The notes beneath the pieces were generated by a model. It saw nothing but the letters and a program-made list of their open reading frames with translations, ran no database searches and was not told the DNA's origin. Positions 10,790 to 28,585 of a stretch of DNA of 64,000 nt are shown here, piece by piece; positions within the stretch are counted from its first letter, which is position 1; each line of letters opens with the position of its first letter. This stretch comes from Jejuia pallidilutea (GTDB taxonomy: Bacteria; Bacteroidota; Bacteroidia; Flavobacteriales; Flavobacteriaceae): contig NZ_PVEO01000004.1 of the NCBI RefSeq assembly GCF_002973595.1, positions 1 through 64,000 on the forward strand. Direction: 5' to 3'. A program made the translations under genes and the position numbers.

Positions 10790-11347
10790 ATGGATACGTT
10801 TTCTACCATAAGATTTAAAATAAAAACAGCAAATAGATTTAGAAAGTTCTCTTTACAGGTTGCCCAAACACATACTGAAGCCCTTGAATCTATGCTCAAC
10901 TTTTTTGATTGGAACGACCTTTCACCAACAGATAATTTAGGGCTTAAAAGCGAAAGAATCAACAAACGTATCAATGCGGTGATTGCTATTTTAAAAAATA
11001 TTGAAAAGCACCAGACCAAACCTACTACTATTATGTTGCAGCGTCTGTTTGAGGAAACCACCACCATTGAAAAAGAAGAAATCTTTGAGTTCGAAACACC
11101 AAAACTTATTACTGAAAATGAAGAACTGGAACATTACAGGGAATCCTACTACATCGCCCAAGAACAATTCACTACACTAAAATATGATCTAGAAAGCTTA
11201 ATTGAAAAAGCGAAATATATAAAAGGAAGTTTCAGTCCTGGATATTTCAAATTGGAAATGACCAAAGCGGAATTTGAAGCCATTAAGGAGAGAGGTAAAA
11301 TGTTTAAAAATGTACATCACGATAACACCACAAAAACTAGGAGATAA
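10790..11347 (+). CDS. BfmA/BtgA-like mobilization accessory protein
   Basis: A 185-residue protein. The N-terminus (STIRFKIKTANRFRKFSLQVAQTHTEALESML) looks like the DNA-binding part of BfmA/BtgA relaxosome proteins of Bacteroidota elements; a long helical, coiled-coil-like C-terminal half follows. Such proteins bind oriT and recruit the relaxase. It lies 22 bp after a 12-bp inverted repeat, and its end overlaps the relaxase start by 38 bp, so the two are translationally coupled. Confidence 0.75.
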   Translation: MDTFSTIRFKIKTANRFRKFSLQVAQTHTEALESMLNFFDWNDLSPTDNLGLKSERINKRINAVIAILKNIEKHQTKPTTIMLQRLFEETTTIEKEEIFEFETPKLITENEELEHYRESYYIAQEQFTTLKYDLESLIEKAKYIKGSFSPGYFKLEMTKAEFEAIKERGKMFKNVHHDNTTKTRR

Positions 11348-12344
11348 CTATTCCCAATCGGTAGCCGATTTTGTGTCCTATTTAGAAAAGGAAAACGAGG
11401 GCAAACCCCTTGAGAAAATGGAATCGTTCTTCAACCAATATGGAGATAATATTTCTACAAAGGAGGTCATCCATGATATTGATAGTAATACGTCAAAACT
11501 CAAAAAAGCGGAACCAAAATTCTATTCCATAACGGTCAGCCCAAGCCAACATGAACTGAAACAATTGCAGAACCATTCGGAATCATTAAAAACCTATACT
11601 GGTGAAATCATGAAGGACTATACCAAGTCTTTTAATAGGGAGATAGAAGGCAGAGTAATAACTATAAATGATATAAAATATTATGCCAAAATAGAACACG
11701 AACGTACCTATAAGGGTAATGATAAAGCCATTAAGGAAAATGCTCCATATCATAGAAAAATTATAAAGCTAAAACGTGAAATCGCAGAAATAGAAAGTGG
11801 GAAACTTCAAGGAAACGTCAATGACAAGTTAAAACAAATCAAACAACTCAAAGGGGACGCACCGCATAAAATCAATGGACAAATGATAAAACAGGGGATG
11901 AAAAAAGAAGGGAAGCAAACCCATATCCATATTATAGTGAGCAGAAAAGATGTCTCGAATAGATATAGTCTGTCCCCAGGGAGCAAATACAAGGCTTCGG
12001 AAGTTGAGATGAATGGAAAGGTCGTTAAGCGTGGATTTGATAGGGACAAATTCTTTTCGGAATCAGAAAAAACATTTGATAAACTATTCGACTATAATCG
12101 TAATTATGTACAAACTTATAGGGCAAGAAAAGAGTTTATTAAGAATCCAAAAACGTATTATACCAGTATCATGGGGCTTCCTGCTAACGAAAGGGCCATT
12201 GCTTTTAAGTTGATAGGTAAAACAGGTATAAATACTTCATTAATGAACATTCCGACCAACAAGGTTCAGTTAGTGCTAAAGGCGATAAACAAGTTAAAGC
12301 GTGGTGTAGGAAAGGCCATCGAATCAGGATCCATAGGCATATGA
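11310..12344 (+). CDS. Relaxase, DUF5712/MobB-like
   Basis: A 344-residue protein from ATG 11310 (MYITITPQKLGDNYSQSVADF); an in-frame ATG 12 codons earlier gives a less typical start. THIHIIVSRKD (His205, His207) is the HxH metal-binding motif of HUH-type relaxases, and YNRNYVQTYRARKEF near residues 265-280 may supply a tyrosine. DUF5712 proteins occupy the relaxase position in flavobacterial conjugative elements. It would nick oriT and pilot the strand. It overlaps the upstream BfmA-like gene by 38 bp and the coupling-protein gene by 4 bp. Confidence 0.75.
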   Translation: MYITITPQKLGDNYSQSVADFVSYLEKENEGKPLEKMESFFNQYGDNISTKEVIHDIDSNTSKLKKAEPKFYSITVSPSQHELKQLQNHSESLKTYTGEIMKDYTKSFNREIEGRVITINDIKYYAKIEHERTYKGNDKAIKENAPYHRKIIKLKREIAEIESGKLQGNVNDKLKQIKQLKGDAPHKINGQMIKQGMKKEGKQTHIHIIVSRKDVSNRYSLSPGSKYKASEVEMNGKVVKRGFDRDKFFSESEKTFDKLFDYNRNYVQTYRARKEFIKNPKTYYTSIMGLPANERAIAFKLIGKTGINTSLMNIPTNKVQLVLKAINKLKRGVGKAIESGSIGI

Positions 12345-13777
12345 ACTTAGCGCTACCACATATCATCTTATATATTATAATTCCTGTTCTTTTTATGGGT
12401 ACAGTTTTATATGTGTTCTTACACAAAGAAAAAGGTCCCATAACTGATAAAAAATATCAAGTTCATTTTAAGTTAAAACGAGGCAAATTAAAAATTGACA
12501 ATGTAAAAAGGGGCATTTCTATAATAGGTTCTGCGGGAAGTGGAAAAACCGAGAGTGTTATTTATAACTTACTGCAACATTTCAGCAAGTACAGTTTTTG
12601 TGGTATCATCCATGATTACAAAGATTTCGAACTAACTGAAATAGCTTACTCATTGTTCAAGTCCAATCCCAACCTAAAATTCTATACGATTTCCTTTGAT
12701 ACCATCCATTATAAGGTAAACCCGATAGCCCCGAGATATCTGCCAAATGAGGAGAGCGTTAACGAAGTTTCAAAAGTACTAATACAAAATCTATTGGAGC
12801 AGGGGCAATCAACAAATGCCACGGCACAATTTTTTAATGATGCCGTTGAAGGACTTTTGGCAGGCTTGATCTGGAAATTAAGAACGGACTATCCAGAGTA
12901 TTGCACCCTACCACATGTCATTGCTTTATTTCAAACTATAAACACAAAAAAACTAGTGGCATTTTTGAGTTCAAATTTGACCTCTAGAAGTATGGCAAGT
13001 GCTTTTATAAATGGTATAGAATCAGAGAAACAAACCGCGGGTGTAAAAAGTACCTTGGCGAATGCCTTCAAAAAGATAAGTTCCCAAAAATTGTTCATGG
13101 TGCTATCAAAGGACGAAGTGCCATTAGATATTAATAATGAGGACAATTTAGGGGTGATTTCAATAGTCAATAATCCTAAATATGAATCCGCCTATGCGCC
13201 AATAATTGCAACGATTATGCATACGGTTGTAAAACAAATGAGTGTGAGAAACCGAGAGTCATCCTTTATACTAATGGAAGAGGCACCAACCATAAAATTA
13301 CTGAATATGCACCGTATTCCAGCAACATTAAGAAGCTATGATATTTGCACAATTTATGTGATGCAGGACAAAATCCAGAACGATATGCTATATGGCGATA
13401 AAGCGAGCAAAGCTATTTTAAGCAACCTATCCTATCAGTTTTTTGGAAAAGTGAATGATCCTGATACGGCAAAATATTATGAGCGCTTTTTTGAAATCGT
13501 TAAAATGAAAACTACTAGCGTGAACAAGGGAATCAATTTGAATTTTGATACACGTATCACAGAAGGAGAGAAAGAAGTGTCTAAACGTCGAGCAGATGTA
13601 TTTTTTAGGTTAAGGCAAGGTGAATTCGTTGTTTTTGCAGATGGGAATGATAGAAAAGTTGAGTTTGAACTACAGGTTATTGTAAAAAGCTTACCTAGAG
13701 TTCCTAGAGTATGTTCTAAGGAAGAAATTAAATTATTGGTTGATCAGATATATAGGTGTGTAGTGCTGAATATATAG
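12341..13777 (+). CDS. Type IV coupling protein (VirD4/TraD class)
   Basis: A 478-residue inner-membrane ATPase that links the relaxosome to the secretion channel. An N-terminal membrane segment (residues about 8-28) is followed by Walker A GSAGSGKT (63-70) and Walker B ILMEEAPT (about 305-312). KNQ-type C-terminal motifs and ADGNDRKVEF follow. It is shorter than the ~670-residue TraG/MobC proteins of Bacteroides elements, mainly through a short membrane domain. It ends the mobilization operon; 270 bp of AT-rich non-coding DNA separates it from cargo A. Confidence 0.85.
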   Translation: MNLALPHIILYIIIPVLFMGTVLYVFLHKEKGPITDKKYQVHFKLKRGKLKIDNVKRGISIIGSAGSGKTESVIYNLLQHFSKYSFCGIIHDYKDFELTEIAYSLFKSNPNLKFYTISFDTIHYKVNPIAPRYLPNEESVNEVSKVLIQNLLEQGQSTNATAQFFNDAVEGLLAGLIWKLRTDYPEYCTLPHVIALFQTINTKKLVAFLSSNLTSRSMASAFINGIESEKQTAGVKSTLANAFKKISSQKLFMVLSKDEVPLDINNEDNLGVISIVNNPKYESAYAPIIATIMHTVVKQMSVRNRESSFILMEEAPTIKLLNMHRIPATLRSYDICTIYVMQDKIQNDMLYGDKASKAILSNLSYQFFGKVNDPDTAKYYERFFEIVKMKTTSVNKGINLNFDTRITEGEKEVSKRRADVFFRLRQGEFVVFADGNDRKVEFELQVIVKSLPRVPRVCSKEEIKLLVDQIYRCVVLNI

Positions 13778-14046: not shown

Positions 14047-15768
14047 GTGTTTTTTAAAAAATATCTTTGCTTGCTTTTTTTAAAGGTAGTTAATCTATCT
14101 ACCTTGCTTAATATTCTCTTTCTATTTCCTCTTTACGATGAAAGGCAAGAAGATAAGCTTGTAACGTATCAAGATTCATTACAAGGTAAAAGTTATAAAG
14201 AACTAATTGACTCAACAGATGAGGCCTTTTATAACAATGATACAACACTTCTAAATATATACAGAAACTACCATCTAAAAAAAGCTAGAGCCGAGAAAAA
14301 CAATTTAGAGATGGCTCGAGCTTATTATTCTTATATAGGTTGGGAAAATTTAAGTAGCGATTTGGCTTATAGCGATTCCTTAATTGAAATCACGAAAAAT
14401 GAAAAATACGACGCTTATCCTACCACTGGATACTTATTAAAAGCTAAGCTTTATTACAATCACCATAATTACAATAAAGCTTTAGATAACTATATAACTG
14501 CACTTAGGTTGTCTGAAACTAAAAAGGATAAAGTAGGAGAATTGGAAGCCGTTTTGGGTATCGCAGCCATTAAGAATGTTTGGGGTTTGCATGAAGAGGC
14601 TCTGGACATATACAGGAAGAATTATTTTGATATTATAAAATCACCCCACTATCTCCGGGACTATTATTATGAGTACGTACAGTTGACAAATAATTTTTCA
14701 CTATCACTTATTCGAAATAATAAGCTCGATTCTGCCCTCATGATAGCCAGAGATGGCATGAAGGCAACTAAAGATATAAATGATTTGCAAAATTACTACG
14801 ACCTAGGAAAAGTCCATGCTACAGCTAACTTTTATCTAAAAAAGTATCCGCAGGCTTTAGATTCTTTACTGAAATTCTCATCAAATTATTCGGATGGTAT
14901 CCTGATGGACAGCTACTTTATGATAGGGAAGATTTATCAATACCAGAATAAGGACTCATTAATGATCGAGTCTTTTAAGCGAATAGATTCCATTCATAAA
15001 ATTATAAAAGACCCCTATCCAGAGTTAAGGAAAGTATATAATGAACTTTTTAAATATGCTGGACAAAGTGAAGATAAAGAACAGCAATTATATTATATCA
15101 ACCAACTTTTGACCGTGGATAGTGTGTTAGATATAAACTATACCAATGTAAATGAGAAAATGCGTATGGATTATGATATTCCAAAGTTCAAAAAAGAAAA
15201 ACGAATATTGGAGAGAAAGTTATATTCTAGACAACAATTGCTCATAGCCAGTTCTATAATGGTTTTTATCTTAATGTTGTTTTTGGTTTTCTATTATAAA
15301 CGGCAGAAAAAGTTTAAAAAAAGACTCCAAAGGCTTTTAGATGGAGACTTGCCAATGGTCTCTGTACCTAAGGAAACATCTAAAATCAAACCCCTATCTG
15401 GAATTTCAGAACTTATTGTAGAAGATGTTTTAGAAAAGTTAAATGCCTTTGAAGCATCGAAAGCATATCTTTCTAAAAATATAACCCTGAATGACCTGGC
15501 CAAGGAATTTAATACAAATTCAACCTACTTATCTATGATTATAAATTATGTAAAGCAGGTAAACTTTTCAAGCTATTTAAAGGATTTGAGGATTACAAAT
15601 GCGGTAAATAGTATTAAAAAAGACCCTAGTTTTCTAAAGTATTCCATGAACGGTCTTGCAGACCAATTTGGATTTACAACCGCAGAATCTTTTTCAAAAG
15701 CATTTCGGGAGAAAACGGGTATTAAGCCATCATACTTTTTAAATGAATTAAGAAAAAACAAAATATAG
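14047..15768 (+). CDS. Membrane-anchored TPR / AraC-family regulator
   Basis: A 573-residue protein starting with GTG at 14047. The order is a hydrophobic N-terminal signal or anchor (about 5-28), TPR-like helical repeats (about 60-380: NYNKALDNYITALRLSETKK, KYPQALDSLLKF and others), a transmembrane helix (about 398-416, IASSIMVFILMLFLVFYY), a basic linker and a C-terminal AraC HTH domain (about 470-570, ITLNDLAKEFNTNSTYLSMI ... SFSKAFREKTGIKPSYFL). This topology senses something in the periplasm and acts on DNA in the cytoplasm. It heads the peptide-export cluster and is its likely regulator. A direct TATAAAT repeat spaced by 22 bp lies just after it, before the peptide gene. Confidence 0.85.
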   Translation: MFFKKYLCLLFLKVVNLSTLLNILFLFPLYDERQEDKLVTYQDSLQGKSYKELIDSTDEAFYNNDTTLLNIYRNYHLKKARAEKNNLEMARAYYSYIGWENLSSDLAYSDSLIEITKNEKYDAYPTTGYLLKAKLYYNHHNYNKALDNYITALRLSETKKDKVGELEAVLGIAAIKNVWGLHEEALDIYRKNYFDIIKSPHYLRDYYYEYVQLTNNFSLSLIRNNKLDSALMIARDGMKATKDINDLQNYYDLGKVHATANFYLKKYPQALDSLLKFSSNYSDGILMDSYFMIGKIYQYQNKDSLMIESFKRIDSIHKIIKDPYPELRKVYNELFKYAGQSEDKEQQLYYINQLLTVDSVLDINYTNVNEKMRMDYDIPKFKKEKRILERKLYSRQQLLIASSIMVFILMLFLVFYYKRQKKFKKRLQRLLDGDLPMVSVPKETSKIKPLSGISELIVEDVLEKLNAFEASKAYLSKNITLNDLAKEFNTNSTYLSMIINYVKQVNFSSYLKDLRITNAVNSIKKDPSFLKYSMNGLADQFGFTTAESFSKAFREKTGIKPSYFLNELRKNKI

Positions 15769-15783
15769 TTTAAATAAAGTACA

Positions 15784-15819
15784 CGTAATTTATAAATGGC
15801 GAGTGTAATGTCTATAAAT
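15784..15819. promoter_or_regulatory. Direct-repeat operator candidate before the peptide gene
   Basis: CGTAATTTATAAAT (15784-15797), then TATAAAT again at 15813-15819, a 22-bp period. AraC-type proteins bind such direct repeats two helical turns apart. The same 14-mer, with a second TATAAAT 21 bp on, recurs at 21765-21799 before rteC. Binding is inferred. Confidence 0.5.
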
Positions 15820-15874
15820 GAATAACACGCTTTTATACATTTATAAAAAATTATTAATCCAAAAATTGAAGATT

Positions 15875-16015
15875 ATGAAATCAACAAGACAAAAAAAAAC
15901 TAAAAACCAAGAAGGATTTGTCCCTAAGAGAATTAGTAAACCAGAAATGATTGTTGGAGGAGGTGGAGGACCTATAATAGATAAGGATAAAATAAGAACT
16001 CCAAAGCGAAGATAG
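15875..16015 (+). CDS. Candidate secreted-peptide precursor (46 residues, Gly5 run)
   Basis: The small frame is open from 15818, but ATG 15875 gives the natural peptide: a basic N-terminus (MKSTRQKKTKNQEGF), a mid part VPKRISKPEMIV, five consecutive glycines (residues 27-31), then PIIDKDKIRTPKRR. It has no Cys and few aromatics. The downstream exporter carries a C39 peptidase, an enzyme class that cuts precursors after a double Gly; cutting after the first GG would place Ile at -4 and leave a 17-residue basic, proline-containing product. It lies between the regulator and the S9 peptidase on the same strand. That it is the exported substrate is an inference; the match to the usual leader pattern is only partial. 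Confidence 0.55.
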   Translation: MKSTRQKKTKNQEGFVPKRISKPEMIVGGGGGPIIDKDKIRTPKRR

Positions 16016-16039
16016 ACCTACTGTCAAGTCTCAATTTTA

Positions 16040-18217
16040 ATGTATATGAAACATGTCTTTCTGGTTTTTTGTTTTACTATAGTTTTTAACTGCACAGGTA
16101 AAAAGGAGGTTAATGCTTATCAAAATTACCCATTCATAGAAAAGGTATCAGTAAGGGATACCTGTTTTGGAAACGTTATAGGCGATTCCTATCGGAATAT
16201 AGAAAACCTTCAGGATACTGTTGTAATAAATTGGTTTGAGGCTCAAGACGCCCATACAGAAAAGTTTTTGGGACAGTTTATAAATCAAGAAAGAATTTCC
16301 GACCAGATAAAATCCTATTATTTCAATAAGGAGCAAGCAGTTTCAAGTGTAAAATATACAAATTTTGGGTCTGTTTTTTTTCTGAAAGCAGATATTAAAA
16401 ACAGTATTGAAAAGCTTTACTACAGAAAAAATAAAAACGCTGAAGATGTTTTGTTATTTGATCCAAGAGTATTTAAAAAGAATCTAAATCGGGAATATAC
16501 CATTAATTATATCCAACCCTCATGGGATGGACAATATGTTGTGGTTTCCCTGAATTATGATGGGCTTAAAAGTTCGGATATTATCATAGTAAATGTAAAG
16601 AGCCAAGAAGTGCTTCCAGAGGTGATTTCAAACACTGCACCAGATATCTATCTGGGCATCTCATGGCTTCCAGACTCCAGTGGTTTTTTATATCTATATA
16701 TTCCTATTTTAGATTATAATGATGAAAACTACATGCTGAACTCTAGCACGGTACTACATAAGCTGGGGGACAATCCTAACAAGCGACGGATTGTTTTTTC
16801 ATCAAAATCCAAACCAGAAATTACTGAGGAAGATTTACCCATTGCAAAAATATTGTCACCCAAAGACAAATATCTTATAGGCTATAAAGCTTCAGTTGAA
16901 AACTATTGGTCAGCATTCTATGCTGATATAAATGATTTAGATAAGGAGGTCATTCATTGGAAACCATTATATTCATCAAATGAAAAAGTCTATGCGGATT
17001 ATGGCTATTTTATTAAGGACAAGTTTTTTTATATTTCTGGAAAAGAAGCGGATAATAGAAACATTTCCAGTTTTGATATTATAAAAGATGTATTACCGAG
17101 TCCAACCGTTCTGGTTCCTGAAAAAGAAGATGAAGTCATATCCTCATTGCAAATTACGAGCAATAGCCTTTATTACACTACCTCCAAATATGGGGTTGAG
17201 TCTTTTCTGTATGAGTATAAAGACAATCAAGTTTCAAAATTAAAATTACCACATGCTTCAGGAGCTATAAACATTTATAGCAGCTCTAATGAAAATTTTA
17301 ATTTATATTTGGGTATAGATGGATGGACTGTTGATTATAAACGGTATATTTTTGATGGTTCCCAGTTTCAATTAGACCCATTATCAAACCACCAAAGTTA
17401 TCCAGAATTTGAAGCATTGGAAGTGAAAGAAATTCAAATAATCTCACATGATGGTGCTGAAGTACCGGTCTCACTAATATATAGAAAGGACATAAAAATG
17501 GATGGGACAAGTCCTGTACTATTATATACATACGGTGCATATGGAGAATCCATTACGCCCTATTTTTCTCCTATATATCTTAATTGGGTTTTAAACGGTG
17601 GTGTGTTTGTTGTTCCACATATTAGGGGAGGTGGTGAAAAAGGAGATTCATGGCATAAAGCTGGAATGAAATCTAATAAGTCAAATTCATGGAAAGATAT
17701 TATTGCCTGTACGGAATACTTAATAGAGCAAAAATATACTTCCAAGGAAAAAACCGTGCTTTACAGCAGTAGTGCAGGAACTGTATCTACAGGTATGGCC
17801 ATGGTTGAAAGACCAGATCTGTTCAGTGTTTTTATTGCAGTTGTCCCCATGCTAAATCCTTTGCGTAGTGAAGCACGAGCCAATAACGCATCAAATTATT
17901 TGGAGTATGGTACAATAAAGGATTCCATCGAATGTATGTCACTAATCAAAATGGACCCGTATGTAAACCTTCAACCAAACACAACCTATCCTGCATCATT
18001 AATTATCGCAAGTTTTAATGATGCCCGTATTGATGCATGGATACCCGGAAAATTTGCAGCTAAGTTACAAGAAAGCTCAAATTCGGGCGCTCCTGTTTTT
18101 TTAGATATTATTTATGATGCGGGCCACGGTGGAGGTGATACCATGGAAGAACAAATAGAGGAATATGCCAGGGTATTTGCTTTTGCATATTGGCAAACCA
18201 ACCATAGTTTAAAATAA
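16040..18217 (+). CDS. Prolyl oligopeptidase-family (S9) lipoprotein
   Basis: A 725-residue protein with a lipoprotein signal ending FNC (start M1 or M3), so it is predicted in the cell envelope. Residues about 30-440 would form the beta-propeller, and about 470-720 the alpha/beta-hydrolase domain, with HIRGGGEKGDSWHKAGM typical of prolyl oligopeptidases. The catalytic triad is readable as Ser578 in YSSSAGT, Asp in FNDARIDAW and His in AGHGGG. The nucleophile elbow is unusual: the family normally has GGSxGG, but here both glycines before the Ser are serines and the last Gly is Thr. It lies 24 bp after the peptide gene and 15 bp before the exporter. A role in trimming, cyclising or degrading the exported peptide is inferred. 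Confidence 0.85.
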   Translation: MYMKHVFLVFCFTIVFNCTGKKEVNAYQNYPFIEKVSVRDTCFGNVIGDSYRNIENLQDTVVINWFEAQDAHTEKFLGQFINQERISDQIKSYYFNKEQAVSSVKYTNFGSVFFLKADIKNSIEKLYYRKNKNAEDVLLFDPRVFKKNLNREYTINYIQPSWDGQYVVVSLNYDGLKSSDIIIVNVKSQEVLPEVISNTAPDIYLGISWLPDSSGFLYLYIPILDYNDENYMLNSSTVLHKLGDNPNKRRIVFSSKSKPEITEEDLPIAKILSPKDKYLIGYKASVENYWSAFYADINDLDKEVIHWKPLYSSNEKVYADYGYFIKDKFFYISGKEADNRNISSFDIIKDVLPSPTVLVPEKEDEVISSLQITSNSLYYTTSKYGVESFLYEYKDNQVSKLKLPHASGAINIYSSSNENFNLYLGIDGWTVDYKRYIFDGSQFQLDPLSNHQSYPEFEALEVKEIQIISHDGAEVPVSLIYRKDIKMDGTSPVLLYTYGAYGESITPYFSPIYLNWVLNGGVFVVPHIRGGGEKGDSWHKAGMKSNKSNSWKDIIACTEYLIEQKYTSKEKTVLYSSSAGTVSTGMAMVERPDLFSVFIAVVPMLNPLRSEARANNASNYLEYGTIKDSIECMSLIKMDPYVNLQPNTTYPASLIIASFNDARIDAWIPGKFAAKLQESSNSGAPVFLDIIYDAGHGGGDTMEEQIEEYARVFAFAYWQTNHSLK

Positions 18218-18232
18218 ACGAATGATAATAAC

Positions 18233-20410
18233 GTGTTTCCAAATTTCAGGCAAATAGATACCAAAGATTGCGGAGCAACATGCTTGAAAATCATTGCGAA
18301 GCACTATGGAAAGATTGTTTCAATAGATGAATTGAGAATATACTCAGAAACATCCAGAACAGGAAGCAATCTTAAATTTTTGGCGAAGGCTGCTGAAACC
18401 ATAGGATTGAAATCACTCCCTGCAAAAATTGATTTTAAACAATTAAAAGAAGCTCCACTGCCTTGTATTTTGCACTGGAATAAAGACCACTTTGTGGTGC
18501 TCTACAAAATTAAAAAGAAAACCTGTTTTATTTCAGACCCAGCTGTAGGTCATGTAAGCTATAAGAACGATGAATTTATCAAACAATGGATTGGTAATAA
18601 TGCCAATGAACTTACAGAAGAGGGCGTAGTACTCTTATTAGAACCAACTTTGTACTTTCATTCTAAAACTTTCAATCTCGCCAGCCAATCACTGAGTTTT
18701 TCCTTTATTCTAAAGTATCTATCTAGATATAAATCTTTTTTGTGGCAGTTATTCTTTGGGCTGTTGGCAGGAAGCATTCTACAGCTCATTTTTCCATTTT
18801 TGACTCAAAGCATCGTCGATATTGGTATTAGAAACCAAGATATTCAATTTGTGTATTTGATTCTAATTGCACAATTATTTTTATTCGTGGGAAGAACAGC
18901 AGTTGAACTCATTAGGAATTGGATATTGTTGCATTTGAACACCCGTATCAACATATCCATGTTGTCCGACTTTTTTCTAAAATTGATGGGGTTGCCTATT
19001 GCTTTTTTTGACACACGAGTTACTGGAGATATTTTGCAACGCATAGGCGACCACGAGCGTATTGAAAAATTACTGACATCATCTTCATTACAAGTACTTT
19101 TTTCCTTGGTAAATTTTGTGATATTTGGACTGGTTTTAATGTATTACAGCATTTCCATATTTATAGTATTCCTCATTGGTAGTTTGGCATATCTAGGCTG
19201 GATACTATTATTTCTTAAAAAACGAAAGGTTCTGGATTACAGGGAATTCAAGGAAACAGCCAATGAGCAGAGTAAAGTTATAGAACTTATAAATGGCATG
19301 CAGGATATTAAACTACACAATGCGGAGCAAGAGTTTCGTTGGGATTGGGAATATATTCAGGCCAGATTATTTAAGATAGCTGTAAATCGTATGGCTTGGG
19401 ACCAATATCAAGATATTGGTTCAGGATTTATCAACGAGCTGAAGAATATATTGGTTACCGTTTTGGCAGCCAAATTGGTTATTGATGGCGAGATTACCTT
19501 AGGTATGATGTTAGCGGTAAGTTACATTGTGGGGCAATTAAACGCACCAATAATACAATGCGTTGACTTTATTAGAGATTGGCAAGATGCCAAAATATCA
19601 TTAGAACGGCTTTCTGAAATTCATGGAAAAGAAGACGAACATATTCTGGATAATGGTCTTGTACAGTTTTCTGAAACCTCAGATTTAGAATTGGTTAATG
19701 TCTCTTTTAGATATTCAGGAGTAGAAGTTCCAACTTTAAGAAACCTTAACTTGCTTATTCCCCAAAATAAGGTAACGGCAATTGTTGGAAGCAGTGGGAG
19801 TGGTAAAACAACTTTAATGAAACTTCTGTTGCAATTTTATCAACCACAAGAAGGGCTGATAAAGGTTGGAAACGTATCGCTGAAACACATTGCCTATCAA
19901 TGCTGGAGAGAATGTTGCGGAACAGTAATGCAAGAGGGCTATATCTTTAGTAACACCATTGCCAGAAATATTACCATGGGAGATAACCCAGTAAATCAAA
20001 AAAAGCTTCAAAAATCTGCACAATTGGCCAACATCAGTAGTTTTATCGAGACGTTGCCTTTAGCCTATAATACGGTTATAGGAGCCGAGGGCATAGGACT
20101 TAGCTCGGGACAAAAACAACGTATTCTGATCGCGAGGGCTATTTATAAAAACCCAAAATATTTGTTTTTTGACGAAGCCACATCTGCTTTGGATGCCAAT
20201 ATCGAAAAAGAGATCATGAAAAATATGGAAACGTTCTTTTTGGGCAAAACGGTAGTTATTATAGCCCATCGCTTAAGTACAGTGAGAAACGCAGATCAAA
20301 TAGTGGTATTGGAAAATGGCCAGATCAAAGAAACCGGTAACCACAAATCACTAACTGCTTTAAAAGGAAGCTACTATAGTTTGGTGAAAAACCAATTGGA
20401 ATTAGGTTAA
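18233..20410 (+). CDS. Peptidase-containing ABC exporter (C39, PCAT type)
   Basis: A 725-residue protein starting with GTG 18233 (no usable ATG). Residues 1-135 are a C39 peptidase with catalytic Cys13 in DTKDCGATC, His in HWNKDHFVVLY and Asp in SDPAVGH. A six-helix ABC membrane domain follows (about 160-440), then the nucleotide-binding domain with Walker A GSSGSGKTT, signature LSSGQKQR, Walker B YLFFDEATSALD and H-loop IIAHRLS. All catalytic residues are present. PCAT proteins cut Gly-Gly leaders and export the mature peptide. Sits between the S9 peptidase and the adaptor, 3 nt from the latter. Confidence 0.93.
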   Translation: MFPNFRQIDTKDCGATCLKIIAKHYGKIVSIDELRIYSETSRTGSNLKFLAKAAETIGLKSLPAKIDFKQLKEAPLPCILHWNKDHFVVLYKIKKKTCFISDPAVGHVSYKNDEFIKQWIGNNANELTEEGVVLLLEPTLYFHSKTFNLASQSLSFSFILKYLSRYKSFLWQLFFGLLAGSILQLIFPFLTQSIVDIGIRNQDIQFVYLILIAQLFLFVGRTAVELIRNWILLHLNTRINISMLSDFFLKLMGLPIAFFDTRVTGDILQRIGDHERIEKLLTSSSLQVLFSLVNFVIFGLVLMYYSISIFIVFLIGSLAYLGWILLFLKKRKVLDYREFKETANEQSKVIELINGMQDIKLHNAEQEFRWDWEYIQARLFKIAVNRMAWDQYQDIGSGFINELKNILVTVLAAKLVIDGEITLGMMLAVSYIVGQLNAPIIQCVDFIRDWQDAKISLERLSEIHGKEDEHILDNGLVQFSETSDLELVNVSFRYSGVEVPTLRNLNLLIPQNKVTAIVGSSGSGKTTLMKLLLQFYQPQEGLIKVGNVSLKHIAYQCWRECCGTVMQEGYIFSNTIARNITMGDNPVNQKKLQKSAQLANISSFIETLPLAYNTVIGAEGIGLSSGQKQRILIARAIYKNPKYLFFDEATSALDANIEKEIMKNMETFFLGKTVVIIAHRLSTVRNADQIVVLENGQIKETGNHKSLTALKGSYYSLVKNQLELG

Positions 20411-20413
20411 TGC

Positions 20414-21706
20414 ATGGAAAGGTCTGAAAAGGAAATAACCATACGAAGTGAGGAAGTCCAAGACATCCTAAATAAGGTACCATCAAAACTCATACGTTGG
20501 GGCAGTATTATTTTTCTTGGACTTATTGTGTTGATGATTTGTCTTTTATGGCTGGTAAAATATCCCGATGTTATAACAGCAGAAGCTTATCTGACCACTG
20601 ATCCGCCTCCCCAAAAAATCTATGCTAGGGTAGATGCCAAAATCGATACGATTCTGTTATTTGATAAAGATTATGTTAGTAAAAATACGGTTATTGCTAT
20701 TCTGGAAAATTCATCTGATAATAAAGATGTACTTTTTTTGAAGTCAATATTGGATACAATTACCTTGACCCCAGGGCAAGTGTTTTTTCCATTTAAGGAA
20801 TTACCATTACTGTTTTTAGGAGAGGTTGAACTTCAGTTCTCAGAATTTGAAAATGCTTATTTTGAATATAGCATGAATCGAGACTTAAAACCTTTTGATG
20901 GTAAAATAAGAGCCAATAACACCTCTTTGGCAGAGTTGAAAAACCGTCTCAAAAACTTGATAAGCCAAAAGGAAATCAGTCGCAGAGAACTTGGTATTAT
21001 AAAAAAAGATTTAGACCGTTATAAAGCTTTATTGAAAAAGGGTATTGTTTCACAACAGATGTATGAGAACAAGCAGGTCGTTTTTTACACAGCTTCCAGA
21101 GAATACGAGAACGCTATTTTTTTGATTTCCCAGATAAAAGAATCAATAGGCAATTCCCGAAGAGATTCCCAAAACATAGATTTTACCAAATATCGGGATG
21201 AGAACCAACTGTTAAAAAAAGTACTTCACTCATATAAAGAATTGAAAAGGACAATAAGTGATTGGGAGTTAAAGTATGTTCTGAAATCAAGGGATAGTGG
21301 TATTTTATCATTTGTAGAATATTTGGATAAAAATTACAACGTTTCCAAAGGAGACTTGTTGTTTACCGTATCACCAAGTCACACACCTTTTTATATTGCA
21401 AAAGTTAAAACTCCAAAGGTAAATGCGGGAAAATTAAAGATAGGGCAACACGTAAATCTAGAGCTTAATGATTATCCAGATTATGAATTTGGAGTCTTAA
21501 AAGGAAGCGTGTCCAACATATCAAATGTATCCGATGAAAATGGCGCCTATATAGTTGATGTTAAAATTACTAAGGATTTAAAAACAACTTTCGGTAATAC
21601 AATTGCCTTTAAGCAGGAAATGAAAGGAACAGCAGATATCATAACTGAGGATCTGCGATTATTGGAACGTTTGTTCTACCAATTCAAAGACCTATATTCC
21701 AAATAA
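20414..21706 (+). CDS. HlyD-family membrane fusion / adaptor protein
   Basis: A 430-residue periplasmic adaptor: short cytoplasmic N-terminus, one membrane helix (about 31-50, IIFLGLIVLMICLLWLV), a split lipoyl/barrel-sandwich domain, a long coiled coil (about 165-285, LAELKNRLKNLISQKEISRREL and on) and a beta-barrel domain. It links the ABC exporter to an outer-membrane channel. No TolC-like gene is in the cluster, so a channel from elsewhere is implied. It is 3 nt from the exporter, clearly co-transcribed. Confidence 0.9.
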   Translation: MERSEKEITIRSEEVQDILNKVPSKLIRWGSIIFLGLIVLMICLLWLVKYPDVITAEAYLTTDPPPQKIYARVDAKIDTILLFDKDYVSKNTVIAILENSSDNKDVLFLKSILDTITLTPGQVFFPFKELPLLFLGEVELQFSEFENAYFEYSMNRDLKPFDGKIRANNTSLAELKNRLKNLISQKEISRRELGIIKKDLDRYKALLKKGIVSQQMYENKQVVFYTASREYENAIFLISQIKESIGNSRRDSQNIDFTKYRDENQLLKKVLHSYKELKRTISDWELKYVLKSRDSGILSFVEYLDKNYNVSKGDLLFTVSPSHTPFYIAKVKTPKVNAGKLKIGQHVNLELNDYPDYEFGVLKGSVSNISNVSDENGAYIVDVKITKDLKTTFGNTIAFKQEMKGTADIITEDLRLLERLFYQFKDLYSK

Positions 21707-21764: not shown

Positions 21765-21799
21765 CGTAATTTATAAATACTTAGATAATATTTATAAAT
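21765..21799. promoter_or_regulatory. Second copy of the TATAAAT direct-repeat element
   Basis: CGTAATTTATAAAT (21765-21778), identical over 14 bp to the element before the peptide gene, with another TATAAAT at 21793-21799 (21-bp period). It lies 133 bp before rteC, after the export operon. Confidence 0.5.
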
Positions 21800-21931: not shown

Positions 21932-22744
21932 ATGGACTTCCCCTCCCGTCTTTACATATTTCAAAATGCATTGAAACAGATTCAAAAATCAGATTTGAAT
22001 ATTTTCATGAAGTGCAACGAGGCTATAGTATTAAGTCGAAAGTTGCTTTCGGAATTCAGAAAAGAAATTAGTACAAACGGTTTTAAATCCATTACTGAGG
22101 AAATCACTTTTTTTAAGAACTATAAACAAATACCTTTTAGTTATCTCATTTACTATTCCAAAATATATGCTTTTGAAAGTGAATTTTCTAAAGTGCCAAA
22201 AGTACAAAGGCAATCTTCCATAGATAAATTTAGAAATAAGGCTTATCAATTTTTAATGCGCCATATAGATTTTGTGAATTATATTGAACAGGGACAAACA
22301 CATTTGGATATACCATATTTTACGCGAGGTCAGTCAGTTCAAATTATGATGATGCATACGGATGATAATTTCTACGACTTAGATTTCAATACTTCACACG
22401 ACCATTTATTGGCAAAAGTTTTAGCCAGCAAAAGATTTATTGACTACTTAGAAAATCGTTTGCATGTATATCCAACGCTTTGCCAGAAATCTACGCTACA
22501 ATGGACTTCCAGCAAGGTGGCACTGACCGAATTGATTTATGCTCTATATCATAGTAATACTATCAATTATGGGAATACCGACATCAAGGAGATTGCAGAT
22601 GTAATGCAAAAATTGTTCAATTGTGAATTGGGAGATTTCTACAAAGTGTATTCAGAAATAAGAAATCGTAAAAAAAGCAAGACTAAGTTTTTAGATGAAC
22701 TTTCTATGCAACTAATCCATGCGATGGACAAAATCGATTCTTAA
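21932..22744 (+). CDS. rteC: RteC-like regulator
   Basis: A 270-residue protein matching RteC of CTnDOT-type elements in its central part: FTRGQSVQIMMM, FYDLDFNTSHDHLLAKVLASKRFIDYLENRL, and the C-terminal WTSSKVALTELIYALYHSNTINYG ... IADVMQKLFNCELGDFYKVYSEI. In CTnDOT, RteC activates excision genes by binding upstream of xis2c. Here the next gene downstream is a small excisionase-like protein, fitting that logic. RteA/RteB sensor and regulator genes are absent. Confidence 0.85.
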   Translation: MDFPSRLYIFQNALKQIQKSDLNIFMKCNEAIVLSRKLLSEFRKEISTNGFKSITEEITFFKNYKQIPFSYLIYYSKIYAFESEFSKVPKVQRQSSIDKFRNKAYQFLMRHIDFVNYIEQGQTHLDIPYFTRGQSVQIMMMHTDDNFYDLDFNTSHDHLLAKVLASKRFIDYLENRLHVYPTLCQKSTLQWTSSKVALTELIYALYHSNTINYGNTDIKEIADVMQKLFNCELGDFYKVYSEIRNRKKSKTKFLDELSMQLIHAMDKIDS

Positions 22745-23043: not shown

Positions 23044-23322
23044 ATGGCAGCAACAATTATTACCACAGATGATCTTCGAGAGTTTAAAATGGAACTACTC
23101 GAAGAAATCAAAGAATTGCTTAGTAACAATTCTGGACATCCTAACAAGAGATGGTTGAAATCTCCAGAGGTGAGGAAACTTCTGGGAATCTCTCCAGGAA
23201 CTTTACAAAACCTTCGCATTAATGGCATATTGCCTTACACAAAAGTTGGCGGTGTGCTATACTATGATTATCAAGACATCATACAGGTGCTTGAAAAGAA
23301 CAGGATTCACAATAAATTCTAA
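23044..23322 (+). CDS. Excisionase-like helix-turn-helix protein
   Basis: A 92-residue protein. Residues about 38-85 form a MerR/excisionase winged helix (LKSPEVRKLLGISPGTLQNLRINGILPYTKVGGVLYYDYQDI), with an acidic helical N-terminus. It resembles Xis2d/HTH_17 proteins of Bacteroidota elements, which control excision and start of transfer. It lies after rteC, with an inverted repeat between the two, and 9 bp before the replication-initiator-like gene. Confidence 0.85.
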   Translation: MAATIITTDDLREFKMELLEEIKELLSNNSGHPNKRWLKSPEVRKLLGISPGTLQNLRINGILPYTKVGGVLYYDYQDIIQVLEKNRIHNKF

Positions 23323-24554: not shown

Positions 24555-24698
24555 TCTGGTATTAGTTGTAATAATTTTTGGAAATCCGTAAGAAATTGTA
24601 TTAAAATATTAATATATTTATAAACGATTACCGTAGAATGAAGTTTGACCGAGCTAATGGGAAATCATTGGCTTTTTTATTGTTTCAAAATAATTATT

Positions 24699-26813
24699 AT
24701 GCATATAAGCTCACTATCCATAAGGAATTTCCGAAATTTCTGTAGGTCAAAATTCATCTTCAAAAAAGGCATAAATACTATTTTAGGCGAAAACGGTTCT
24801 GGTAAAACAAATCTTTTTTTTGCATTACGAGTTCTAATTGACGACAAACTTCCAAGATATATTAGATTTAATGAGTCTGATTTTAATAGAGGTTTAGGTA
24901 AATGGGCTGGCCATTGGATGATTCTGTCGGTCACTTTTGAAGATTTAGATGCAAGTGAAGAAGCCCAAGTACTGGCAGTACAATCTTCTGGAGATATGGA
25001 TGGAAACAAAAAAACCGGAAGTTATTCGGTCTATTTTAGACCCAAATATCAGTTCAGAAAAGAGCTTTACGATTACTCACAAACAACAGGTAAAACTGTG
25101 GAAGGACTTCAACTTTATCTTGATAAGCTTACAATCGATGATTATGAAACATCTTACCTGTGTAGAGGTACTGGAGATTTCAGCGATGATAATACTTATA
25201 AAAAATATATTGGGGATTTTGATAATGTTGAATTTCCTAACCCCGATGATAAGGAAGAACTAATTTTCGGAACATTTCTGCCAAGAGAAATTAGTGTACA
25301 TAATGAAGTTTCTTGTACGTTTATCAAAGCTCTACGTGACGTCGAAAGCGACTTACGTTCCTATTCCACTAATCCTTTAATAAACTTACTAAGAGGAAAA
25401 GAAAAAACTGTTGAAGTTTCTAAACAAACCGATATAATTGAAAGCATCGATAAACTCAACGACCAGATTAGTTCTCTTAAAGAAGTGAAAGAGGTCAAAG
25501 ACGGAATTGATAAAAGTATTAAGGAGGCTGTGGGTACAACTTATGGGCCAAATATAGATGTAAAATCCGAGCTTCCGAATGATATGGAAAAGCTATTGCA
25601 ATCGCTCAAATTATGGGTTGGAGACCCAGATGAAGAGGGCTATATGGGCAAAATCTGGGAGCTTAGTCTAGGTGGTGCAAATATGATTTACCTATCACTT
25701 AAGTTATTGGAATATGAGAAAATAAGGACAGATAGAATTGCAAATTTTCTTCTTATAGAAGAACCAGAAGCACATATTCACACACATATCCAAAAAACAC
25801 TATTTGATAACGTACAAACAAATAGAACCCAAGTTATCATTTCAACCCACTCTACTCATATTTCATCCGTTAGCCGTATAAGTTCAGTAAATATCTTAAG
25901 TCGAACAAATAAACAAACATTGGTATATCAACCAGCAAACAATCTCGATGATGAATATATAACAAGAGCCGAAAGGTATTTGGATGCCATAAGAAGTAAC
26001 TTGCTTTTTGCAAAAGGTGTTGTCTTGGTTGAAGGGGATGCAGAACAAATCCTCATTCCTCAAATGTTCAAAAAGGTCTTTGGAATTTCGCTCGATGAAA
26101 TTGGGGTCAGTCTTGTAAACATTGGAAGCACAGGTTTTAAAAATGTTGCAAGGCTTTTTCATGGAGATAGAATTCAAAAAAACTGTGCGATATTAACCGA
26201 TTTAGATGCCAGTATAGTTGATTTACCTGCAAATGCAGATGATGATTCTACTTATGAAAAGCATTGCAGAGCTTCGGAAGTTAGTGGTGCTGAAAGAAAG
26301 ATAAAACTTGATAAATTTTGCAACAAAAACAGCTTTTTATCCCCTTTTTACTCTAGCTATACTTTTGAGGTAGATGTACTCATGAACGGTAATAGTCATG
26401 AATTCATTGAATCACTTGATGAAATTTTTAAACAACAAGCAGCTATTGAAACTTCAAAGAAAAAATTAGAGGACAAATCAGTTTCAATAGCCGGTGTAGA
26501 AGTTTTGCGATTGGCAGATAAAAAAGGTAAAGGTTGGCTTGCTTTGGTTGTTGCAGATAATTTAGTTTACAACACATATATTCCTGAGTACATTTTGAAA
26601 GCTGTTGCTTTTGCATCTTCCCATCTAAATAATGCATCTAAAGTTAAAACTGCTAAATACAGGTTACGAAAAATTAGCCGCAGTAAAAATGATAGTTATT
26701 TTGAAGTAGCATCAAAAGTCAGCTTTAAGGGGAAAGAAGACCAACAGGTTATCGATGAGTATATTGCCAGTTTTCCTAATGACCAATTTGCCAAATTCTT
26801 GTCGTATTTATGA
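24699..26813 (+). CDS. OLD-family ATPase-nuclease, GajA-like
   Basis: A 704-residue protein from ATG 24699 (MHISSLSIRNFRNFCRSKF), preferred over an upstream in-frame start because OLD proteins begin at this strand. Walker A GENGSGKT (30-37), a long insertion with the ABC-like dimer part, Walker B FLLIEEPEAHIH (about 350), then a TOPRIM domain (about 440-535) with VVLVEGDAEQ and ILTDLDAS, the Glu and DxD expected for metal-dependent cleavage. Class 2 OLD nucleases next to UvrD helicases define Gabija anti-phage systems; GajA is usually about 580 residues, so this one is long. The helicase start overlaps its stop by 4 bp. Confidence 0.88.
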   Translation: MHISSLSIRNFRNFCRSKFIFKKGINTILGENGSGKTNLFFALRVLIDDKLPRYIRFNESDFNRGLGKWAGHWMILSVTFEDLDASEEAQVLAVQSSGDMDGNKKTGSYSVYFRPKYQFRKELYDYSQTTGKTVEGLQLYLDKLTIDDYETSYLCRGTGDFSDDNTYKKYIGDFDNVEFPNPDDKEELIFGTFLPREISVHNEVSCTFIKALRDVESDLRSYSTNPLINLLRGKEKTVEVSKQTDIIESIDKLNDQISSLKEVKEVKDGIDKSIKEAVGTTYGPNIDVKSELPNDMEKLLQSLKLWVGDPDEEGYMGKIWELSLGGANMIYLSLKLLEYEKIRTDRIANFLLIEEPEAHIHTHIQKTLFDNVQTNRTQVIISTHSTHISSVSRISSVNILSRTNKQTLVYQPANNLDDEYITRAERYLDAIRSNLLFAKGVVLVEGDAEQILIPQMFKKVFGISLDEIGVSLVNIGSTGFKNVARLFHGDRIQKNCAILTDLDASIVDLPANADDDSTYEKHCRASEVSGAERKIKLDKFCNKNSFLSPFYSSYTFEVDVLMNGNSHEFIESLDEIFKQQAAIETSKKKLEDKSVSIAGVEVLRLADKKGKGWLALVVADNLVYNTYIPEYILKAVAFASSHLNNASKVKTAKYRLRKISRSKNDSYFEVASKVSFKGKEDQQVIDEYIASFPNDQFAKFLSYL

Positions 26814-28585
26814 TTTTAGATACTCTAAGCGACCAACAGAAAGATGCCGTTATTAAAGTCGGTAATGTACTTCTTACTGCTTGCCCAGGAAGTGGAAAAA
26901 CTCGGGTAATCATCCATAAACTTGCTCATGCTTTAGAAAACGTTGATGAAGACAGTAAACAAAGAGTAGTGGCACTTACCTTTACCGTAAGAGCTTCTGA
27001 AGAAATATATCGCAGATTAAATGCGATGGGTATAAACAGTAAACGTGTTTGGTCTGGCACTTTGCATTCGTTTTGTCTTGAATGGATTATTAAACCTTAT
27101 TCCTGTTATTTGCCTGAACTTGAAAATGGATTTTTAATTGCAGACGAAACTTATGCTTCGGGTATTATAAGTGAACTAAAGGAAAAACATAAACTGAAAC
27201 CCATTGATCCGATTAATTTCAGATTTAATAGGGACGGAACATTTGCTGAAGCAAAAACTATTCAGAAAAGGATACTTAAAGAATATCACGAAAGACTGCA
27301 ATCAGAAAAGTTAATTGATTTTGAACTTCTACTTTATTACTCATACAAACTTTTAACCAAGCATCCGAAAATAAAAAAAACGCTATCAAACATTTTCAGC
27401 CTTATATGTGTTGACGAATACCAAGATACACAGGATTTGCTTTATGCAATTATTTCCTCCATTATTATAACAGGGGAGGGTAGCTCAAATCTTTTTCTAG
27501 TTGGAGATACTGACCAAGCAATTTATGCTTCTTTAGGAGGTGTAGCCAAAAGTCTGGAGGAAATACAAAATGAATTGAACACTTTACCCATTGAACAACT
27601 TACGCTTTCAGGGAATTACAGGTCAACACAAAGAATTATTGATTTTTATTCAATATTCCAGACAAATCCAATTAAAATCGAAGCAATTGGCAAAAATAAA
27701 GACGATGATAGCATAATAACCTACAACAATACAATTGAAAAAGGATATTTGGTTGATGAAATCGCACGACTTATAGAGTATAGTTTAGATAACGGAATTC
27801 CAGAAGGCGAAATTTGCGTATTGGTGCCACAATGGTGGTTAATTACTACAATAACGAAACGGTTAAGGGCTAAATTGCCAGATGTGAATTTTGATGCTTC
27901 CGGTCTAGCACCAATGTCGAAAAACCGAAATAACATTTGGTATAAATTATCTAGATTGTTCTTGACACAGCCAAAGCCAAGAATATACTCGTTACGATAC
28001 AAATGGTGTACTGATGTAATTGAAAATTTCAAAGAACACACGAATACAGAATTCAATGAAAAGTATCAAACTGAAAGAAACGTCTTAAAACTAATTAATT
28101 CAATATCATCCGATGAGACTGAAGGCATCGATTATTTAAATGACTGTTTTGACCAATTTTTGGATGCTGTTGGTATTGACCAAACCATTTACGAGCAACT
28201 TCTTATAAACAGAAAGACTTTCTTTGATGTTATAAAGAGCCGCCTTGAAGACCCAGATTTTCAAGTTCCAAGTGATATAATGTCTTTTATGAGTTTTTAT
28301 AGAGAAATGTCAGGTGTTGTCATCAATACTTGCGTAGGTGTTAAAGGAGAAGAATTTGAAACGGTTATTGCCTATGGTTTGTTAAATGGATTTGTACCAC
28401 ATTGGAATGACATTTTCAATGCAGACCCTGTTGCCGCTTCAAAAAAATTACTTTACGTGATTTGTTCAAGGGCAAAGACCAATTTACACTTGATTTCAGA
28501 AACGGGAAGAAAAACCAAAAGAGGAAACCCGTTAGAGATTACCCCAGAATTGCAAAATCTTGATTTTGAATTTGATGAGATTTAA
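26810..28585 (+). CDS. UvrD/Rep-type helicase, GajB-like
   Basis: A 591-residue SF1 helicase. Motif Q LSDQQKDAV, Walker A TACPGSGKT (23-31), Ia VVALTFTVRASEEIYRRL, Walker B ICVDEYQDTQ, motif III LVGDTDQAIYASLGG, motif IV LSGNYRST, and C-terminal motifs VGVKGEEFETVIAYGL and YVICSRAKTNLHL are present, so the enzyme looks intact. Overlap with the OLD nuclease gene shows translational coupling. In Gabija, GajB senses DNA ends and nucleotides released during infection and activates GajA. Here a third gene follows 34 bp downstream. Confidence 0.9.
   Translation: MILDTLSDQQKDAVIKVGNVLLTACPGSGKTRVIIHKLAHALENVDEDSKQRVVALTFTVRASEEIYRRLNAMGINSKRVWSGTLHSFCLEWIIKPYSCYLPELENGFLIADETYASGIISELKEKHKLKPIDPINFRFNRDGTFAEAKTIQKRILKEYHERLQSEKLIDFELLLYYSYKLLTKHPKIKKTLSNIFSLICVDEYQDTQDLLYAIISSIIITGEGSSNLFLVGDTDQAIYASLGGVAKSLEEIQNELNTLPIEQLTLSGNYRSTQRIIDFYSIFQTNPIKIEAIGKNKDDDSIITYNNTIEKGYLVDEIARLIEYSLDNGIPEGEICVLVPQWWLITTITKRLRAKLPDVNFDASGLAPMSKNRNNIWYKLSRLFLTQPKPRIYSLRYKWCTDVIENFKEHTNTEFNEKYQTERNVLKLINSISSDETEGIDYLNDCFDQFLDAVGIDQTIYEQLLINRKTFFDVIKSRLEDPDFQVPSDIMSFMSFYREMSGVVINTCVGVKGEEFETVIAYGLLNGFVPHWNDIFNADPVAASKKLLYVICSRAKTNLHLISETGRKTKRGNPLEITPELQNLDFEFDEI

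Follow-up and report, generated by a model that had tools for sequence, protein, structure and literature searches.

Within a 64,000-nucleotide stretch of the Jejuia pallidilutea genome (the start of contig NZ_PVEO01000004.1; hereafter, the window), five co-directional genes for a regulator, a small peptide, a peptidase, and an exporter with its adaptor lie immediately before a homologue of rteC. We read this locus, with a probability of about 0.62, as an exchangeable signal-input cassette of an rteC-type integrative and conjugative element (ICE), in which an exported peptide would be sensed by the tetratricopeptide-repeat (TPR)-AraC regulator (hereafter, REG), and REG would control both the cassette and rteC. 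The element, in other words, probably decides when to move through a peptide signal. An earlier note on this DNA had described a peptide production and export system carried on an ICE, an account that is partly supported; it misses the link to rteC, the central neighbor, which it left out. All five open reading frames were found in the order that it gave, and Pfam and NCBIfam confirm the four large proteins. The cassette, rteC, and the operator-like sites discussed below are as follows:

14047..15768, + strand: REG, TPR-membrane-AraC regulator (GTG start, 573 aa)
15875..16015, + strand: precursor gene of a double-glycine (GG) peptide (46 aa)
16040..18217, + strand: S9A (prolyl-oligopeptidase-like) peptidase with an export signal (Pfam Peptidase_S9 plus S9_N propeller)
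18233..20410, + strand: C39 peptidase-ABC exporter (Pfam C39, ABC_membrane, and ABC_tran)
20414..21706, + strand: HlyD-type adaptor (Pfam HlyD_3)
21932..22744, + strand: rteC, homologue of the CTnDOT excision/transfer activator (PF09357, E-value 2.7e-57)
15788..15797: operator-like site ATTTATAAAT, 78–87 bp before the peptide ATG
22 bp downstream of that site: degenerate second copy, CTATAAATG
21769..21799: tandem pair of ATTTATAAAT, 21 bp apart, 133–163 bp before rteC

Related cassettes fall into three classes. Class a is chromosomal and carries a split LanB (class I dehydratase plus a TIGR03891 elimination domain) in Chryseobacterium, Flavobacterium, Aquimarina, and others; class b consists of regulator, peptide, and S9 genes, alone or with an S8 subtilisin. 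Class c is ICE-borne, lacks LanB, mostly has the C39-ABC exporter and HlyD, and occurs with rteC in the window, Seonamhaeicola, Flavivirga, Christiangramia, Gillisia, Arenibacter, and further relatives. Among 67 loci of the S9 clade, taken from named genomes with enough flanking sequence, a homologous TPR-AraC regulator adjoins the S9 gene in 53. The earlier note had staked its case on a conserved small gene between the two, and such a gene is present: a peptide of 40–63 aa with a basic leader and GG precedes the S9 gene in 50/67 loci, across dozens of loci in the Flavobacteriales. The regulator is nearly always the peptide's neighbor, and the exporter and LanB vary among loci.

The regulatory link between cassette and rteC is well supported on sequence grounds. 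The palindrome ATTTATAAAT, common to class c intergenic sequences, occurs at three places only in the window (15788, 21769, and 21790), all of them at the peptide and rteC promoters, and the tandem pair before rteC is the only intergenic one in the 4.1-Mb genome (C17, the third tandem match in the genome, falls within coding sequence). Exact TTTATAAAT stands 86–97 bp before the peptide ATG in 16/17 class c loci, and the seventeenth has one mismatch. The exact site also precedes rteC in 16 of the 17, mostly as pairs 20–21 or 31 bp apart; in L060, two one-mismatch copies are found before rteC. Where exporter operons are separately transcribed, exact TTTATAAAT occurs at about −70 to −80 in four of nine, with one-mismatch copies in two more. 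By comparison, none of 59 rteC loci without a class c cassette has the site in the rteC promoter (16/17 vs 0/59; Fisher p = 1.6e-15); the comparison covered 260-bp upstream stretches, and the motif had already been defined when 40 of the 59 were retrieved.

The same site accompanies the peptide far from ICEs. In a held-out test of 40 chromosomal peptide promoters without rteC, TTTATAAA was found in 23 (vs 2.5 in shuffles) and ATTCATGAAT in 9 (vs 0.15 in shuffles), so the site belongs with REG, not with RteC, and ATTTATAAAT is most likely the REG operator. We rejected the motif as an RteC site on account of these rteC-free promoters and its absence from the xis-like promoter of the window. Croceitalea (L110/L212) has a LanB-S8-S9-S8 version of the cassette next to rteC, and its rteC is preceded by the variant pair ATTCATGAAT/ATTAATGAAT.

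Cassette and rteC also lie closer together than expected. In the 397 family genomes, rteC occurs at more than 150 places and the S9 clade at 48, of which 8 are within 6 kb of rteC, against about 0.07 expected as an estimate from rteC density. In class c, the cassette lies directly before, or divergent to, rteC and a conserved block (w23332-w23892). The RteC proteins of cassette loci are down to about 32% identical, and the cassette-bearing ICEs fall into more than one group of the RteC tree. Because a single origin of the cassette-bearing rteC genes is not rejected (AU test, p = 0.48), the argument behind INDEPENDENCE is the retention of a 9–10-bp site before proteins ~32% identical, together with its absence elsewhere, and not a count of independent gains.

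The position of the cassette recalls CTnDOT, where a sensor pair switches rteC (PMC1976400). RteB is the activator of rteC there, and RteC in turn governs genes for excision and transfer (PMC1976400, PMC10865816). The window shares the CTnDOT-type feature of an RteC homologue before an excision-type operon, and in both systems rteC lies between a sensor or regulator and the excision genes (PMC1976400, PMC10865816). The CTnDOT pair is a two-component system that responds to tetracycline exposure, whereas the window has a peptide-linked TPR-AraC regulator instead: no rteA/rteB two-component pair is present upstream of rteC, and the peptide cassette stands in that place. The surroundings, which place the cassette in an ICE, include rteC, a TraG-like gene, and the following:

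11274..12344, + strand: DUF5712 relaxase-like gene
12341..13777, + strand: type IV secretion system coupling protein
23044..23322, + strand: HTH_17 excisionase-like gene, directly 3' of rteC

By analogy with CTnDOT, the HTH_17 gene is a probable RteC target. Exact matching turned up no att-type repeat. The earlier suggestion that the locus spreads with an ICE stands insofar as the conjugation genes confirm the element, but the cassette is not mere cargo, since it shares operator-like sites with rteC. The ICE also carries a GajA/GajB (Gabija) anti-phage pair (window 24645-28585; PADLOC E-values 1e-286 and 3e-227), followed by a 566-aa gene at 28620-30320.

Neither Pfam nor NCBIfam has a family that matches the peptide. 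Its leader ends in ...EMIVGG, and the predicted core, whose boundary is placed by the GG rule, is GGGPIIDKDKIRTPKRR, with one Thr, no Cys, and almost no Ser/Thr overall. The open reading frame could begin at 15818; homologues begin at 15875. Class c cores are short and hydrophilic (grand average of hydropathy [GRAVY] −0.8 to −2.6), have a net positive charge, and share the motif GxxGPIDRDKIKxPK (ICE-type consensus G-P-I-[DE]-[RK]-D-K-[IL]-[KR]-x-P). When a profile built from 11 peptides was searched alone against the 397 family genomes, new copies came up. Of the strongest matches with inspected surroundings, all but one sit between regulator and S9 gene; the exception, L160, adjoins a regulator at the end of a short contig. 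We reject a chance open reading frame, given profile matches at a conserved position and a conserved promoter site; the dN/dS analysis had too few changes for a ratio. In Flavivirga, four small GG-leader peptides with hydrophobic cores, plus HlyD, adjoin a class c cassette (L047:1925-4060).

REG has a Pfam HTH_18/AraC domain (E-value 1.6e-9), a weak TPR match, an N-terminal hydrophobic segment, and one transmembrane segment at about 395–418 (hydropathy peak start 395–400). An AlphaFold model built with 28 relatives (pLDDT 86.9) shows a TPR superhelix at 38–340, a long membrane helix, and the helix-turn-helix (HTH) domain at 455–572. Relatives have clear signal peptides, so the TPR domain should face the periplasm, in the path of a peptide exported by C39/HlyD. 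Foldseek matches are to peptide-binding TPRs, LGN complexes first and then NprR (5dbk), RapJ-CSF (4gyo), and Rap Phi3T (8rtc); because TPR folds resemble each other, this likeness is suggestive only. Across 59 loci, core similarity follows the REG TPR domain weakly (partial Mantel r = 0.21, p = 0.003) and does not follow S9 (r = −0.04), and leader similarity does follow S9 (0.45, p = 0.003). One locus (L038:2795-7775) has three tandem REG-family genes beside an S9 gene, with no GG peptide between.

C39-ABC proteins remove GG leaders during export. The window exporter has all the features of this type, namely a complete C39 triad (Cys13/His86/Asp102), an ABC exporter, and a nearby GG substrate, and GG cleavage is predicted. 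As the 4.1-Mb genome encodes no other C39 protein, the exporter likely takes the adjoining peptide as its substrate, as the earlier note had supposed. The S9 protein has the triad (Ser578/Asp661/His696, invariant in 67/67 relatives) and the beta-propeller expected of an S9A prolyl oligopeptidase. Its clade, with 32–69% identity, is set apart from the ordinary S9 proteins that these genomes encode (about 28%); a plasmid search returned S9 proteins 26–27% identical at best and no member of the clade. Export signals on its relatives bear out the earlier placement of the enzyme outside the cytoplasm, but its description as a lipoprotein is uncertain: VFNC in the window protein matches a lipobox poorly, and among the relatives some carry a lipobox and others an ordinary signal peptide. 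The straightforward inference is that S9 processes the peptide after export or turns it over. None of the 67 relatives keeps the Trp that fits the S1 pocket to a P1 proline; most have Asn or Ser instead (Asn619 in the window), so that neither proline specificity nor cyclization is to be assumed. The cyclization raised in the earlier note finds no evidence, and as a cyclase candidate the enzyme lacks specific support, its S1 pocket differing from that of prolyl oligopeptidase.

Whether the cassette lies outside the common classes of peptide modification, as had also been proposed, depends on the locus. The window has no LanB dehydratase, no LanC cyclase, and no other modifying enzyme at the cassette, but chromosomal relatives often have the split class I LanB (TIGR03891). 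A LanB acting in trans on the window peptide is unlikely, given a core with one Thr and no Cys.

Taken together, these features suggest the following circuit. The C39-ABC/HlyD system would export the precursor and cut it after GG, as is known of these families, and the exported S9 enzyme would trim or turn over the core peptide outside the cytoplasm. The mature peptide would be sensed by the periplasmic TPR domain of REG, whose cytoplasmic HTH, as the comparative data suggest, would bind ATTTATAAAT before the peptide-S9-exporter genes and the tandem pair before rteC. Peptide level would then set expression of both the cassette and rteC, and RteC would drive excision and transfer of the element. 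The peptide could turn transfer on, as in density sensing, or off when the element is already present in neighbors, the role of PhrI in ICEBs1.

Other explanations can be given for the same genes. The peptide might be a bacteriocin or other effector cargo that REG merely switches on alongside conjugation. C39 exporters and GG leaders are typical of bacteriocins, and the split-LanB chromosomal relatives look like class I lanthipeptide clusters (PMC7268733), but we consider this unlikely for a short, very hydrophilic core with a motif conserved across genera, no immunity-like gene seen at the cassette, and a regulator that stays beside the peptide while exporter and LanB come and go. REG might instead sense some other envelope signal, the peptide being an output (an inhibitor of redundant transfer) or an S9 substrate that reports periplasmic state. 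The sequence supports only the REG-to-DNA half of the circuit, and TPR folds bind many partners; still, the close adjacency of REG and peptide in all classes and the covariation of core and TPR make this a rather improbable account. Instead of serving as a REG operator, ATTTATAAAT might be an element of promoters in general or simply inherited from a common ancestor, an idea suggested by the AT-rich genomes and by cassette-bearing rteC genes that might form one clade. We regard this as very improbable, because the site is missing from the 59 other rteC promoters, its three window copies are confined to the peptide and rteC promoters, and it recurs at chromosomal peptide promoters far from any rteC.

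A variant compatible with the signal-input reading, possible though doubtful, is that S9 destroys the signal as a timer or by self-deafening, as proposed for PrgY of pCF10 (PMC6540685). The intact triad with an altered S1 pocket and the covariation of S9 with the leader, not the core, are in keeping with this precedent, but the adjacency of S9 and peptide at almost every locus is explained at least as well by processing. Several observations weigh against the signal-input reading itself. The cassette is present in only about 4% of sampled rteC loci, and the cassette-bearing rteC genes may have one shared ancestor, which would leave the 17 loci only partly independent of one another. Core similarity in some subsets follows the HTH as closely as the TPR domain. 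Two loci, L047 and L159, have no exporter within the stretch examined, and L155 has an ICE-like core with no rteC nearby and no site. Finally, the 389-kb window contig has no tyrosine integrase (PF00589) despite its conjugation genes, so the element may not excise by itself; it may use another recombinase, receive help in trans, or be stuck.

Conjugation under pheromone control is already known, and it is the parts, topology, and phylum that differ here from those of the RRNPPA systems. In Firmicutes, the pheromone cCF10 turns on pCF10, and PhrI and Phr*LS20 hold back ICEBs1 and pLS20 (PMC6540685, PMC9765709). RapI-PhrI of ICEBs1 and Rap-Phr of pLS20 likewise pair an element-encoded exported peptide with a TPR receptor-like regulator for excision or transfer (PMC6540685, PMC9765709). 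RRNPPA receptors, however, are cytoplasmic and depend on peptide re-import, whereas REG, from Bacteroidota, is a one-transmembrane AraC protein with a TPR domain predicted to face the periplasm and comes with a dedicated C39/HlyD exporter and an S9 enzyme. Their TPR region is C-terminal, behind an N-terminal HTH or effector domain; that of REG is an N-terminal superhelix, followed by the transmembrane segment and a C-terminal AraC HTH, and NprR and Rap are among its structural matches, although other TPRs score better. The RRNPPA-like trait of an adjoining exported propeptide is found at the same 50/67 loci, here by the GG/C39 route and not by Sec. Class I lanthipeptide clusters of Bacteroidota share the LxLxK..GG leader type, C39 export, and, in chromosomal relatives, the split LanB (PMC7268733), but the window lacks their LanB/LanC, Cys, and nearly all core Ser/Thr. 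Compared with S9A prolyl oligopeptidases (proteases of the LanPB type for ribosomally made, modified peptides, and the cyclases PCY1 and POPB), the window enzyme shares fold and triad, but its clade is exported and lacks the Pro-pocket Trp throughout. In the open-access literature, we found no report of pheromone-controlled conjugation in Bacteroidota, of a TPR-AraC/GG-peptide/S9 circuit, or of an RteC/peptide precedent.

Other cassettes occupy the same slot. In 18 other rteC loci followed gene by gene, the slot, often between a tyrosine integrase and rteC, is either empty or holds a membrane protein of roughly 305 aa with a LuxR-type HTH (GerE, E-values 1e-10 to 1e-12), partnered by a PALP-fold enzyme, an asparaginase-N-like protein, or a GNAT. 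Loci with a LuxR-type slot are L203, L206-L210, L213-L215, L217-L219, L222, L248-L251, L255, L261, L262, L271, and L275. A CCGTA..TACG site, often doubled, precedes rteC in every one of the 16 loci that make up two LuxR subtypes, and all other loci lack it; the pattern was defined after the first seven loci, and nine more were new. These cassettes may be small-molecule-linked inputs. The window genome itself has a second rteC ICE with a LuxR/PALP cassette in the slot (G000:C1:413362-414177, L207), which puts two elements with different regulatory inputs in one cell.

The slot comparison implies that ICEs exchange regulator and operator together. On a broader reading, on which our own judgment is evenly balanced, the window would hold the first peptide-pheromone circuit for conjugation in Bacteroidota: a widespread receptor-peptide-S9 family of Flavobacteriales would have been captured by ICEs, with its operators placed at rteC, as one of several exchangeable inputs (TPR-AraC plus peptide; membrane LuxR plus a PALP, asparaginase-like, or GNAT enzyme). 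In the literature found, peptide control of conjugation is known for Firmicutes, and the rteC switch of Bacteroidota only from drug-responsive CTnDOT-type elements. If the reading is true, many rteC ICEs without a drug sensor would have a testable trigger, a synthetic peptide of 17–20 residues; REG would represent a receptor class that senses its peptide in the periplasm, without re-import, and that has an assigned DNA site; and the large family of GG-peptide/S9/LanB clusters could be read as self-sensing systems.

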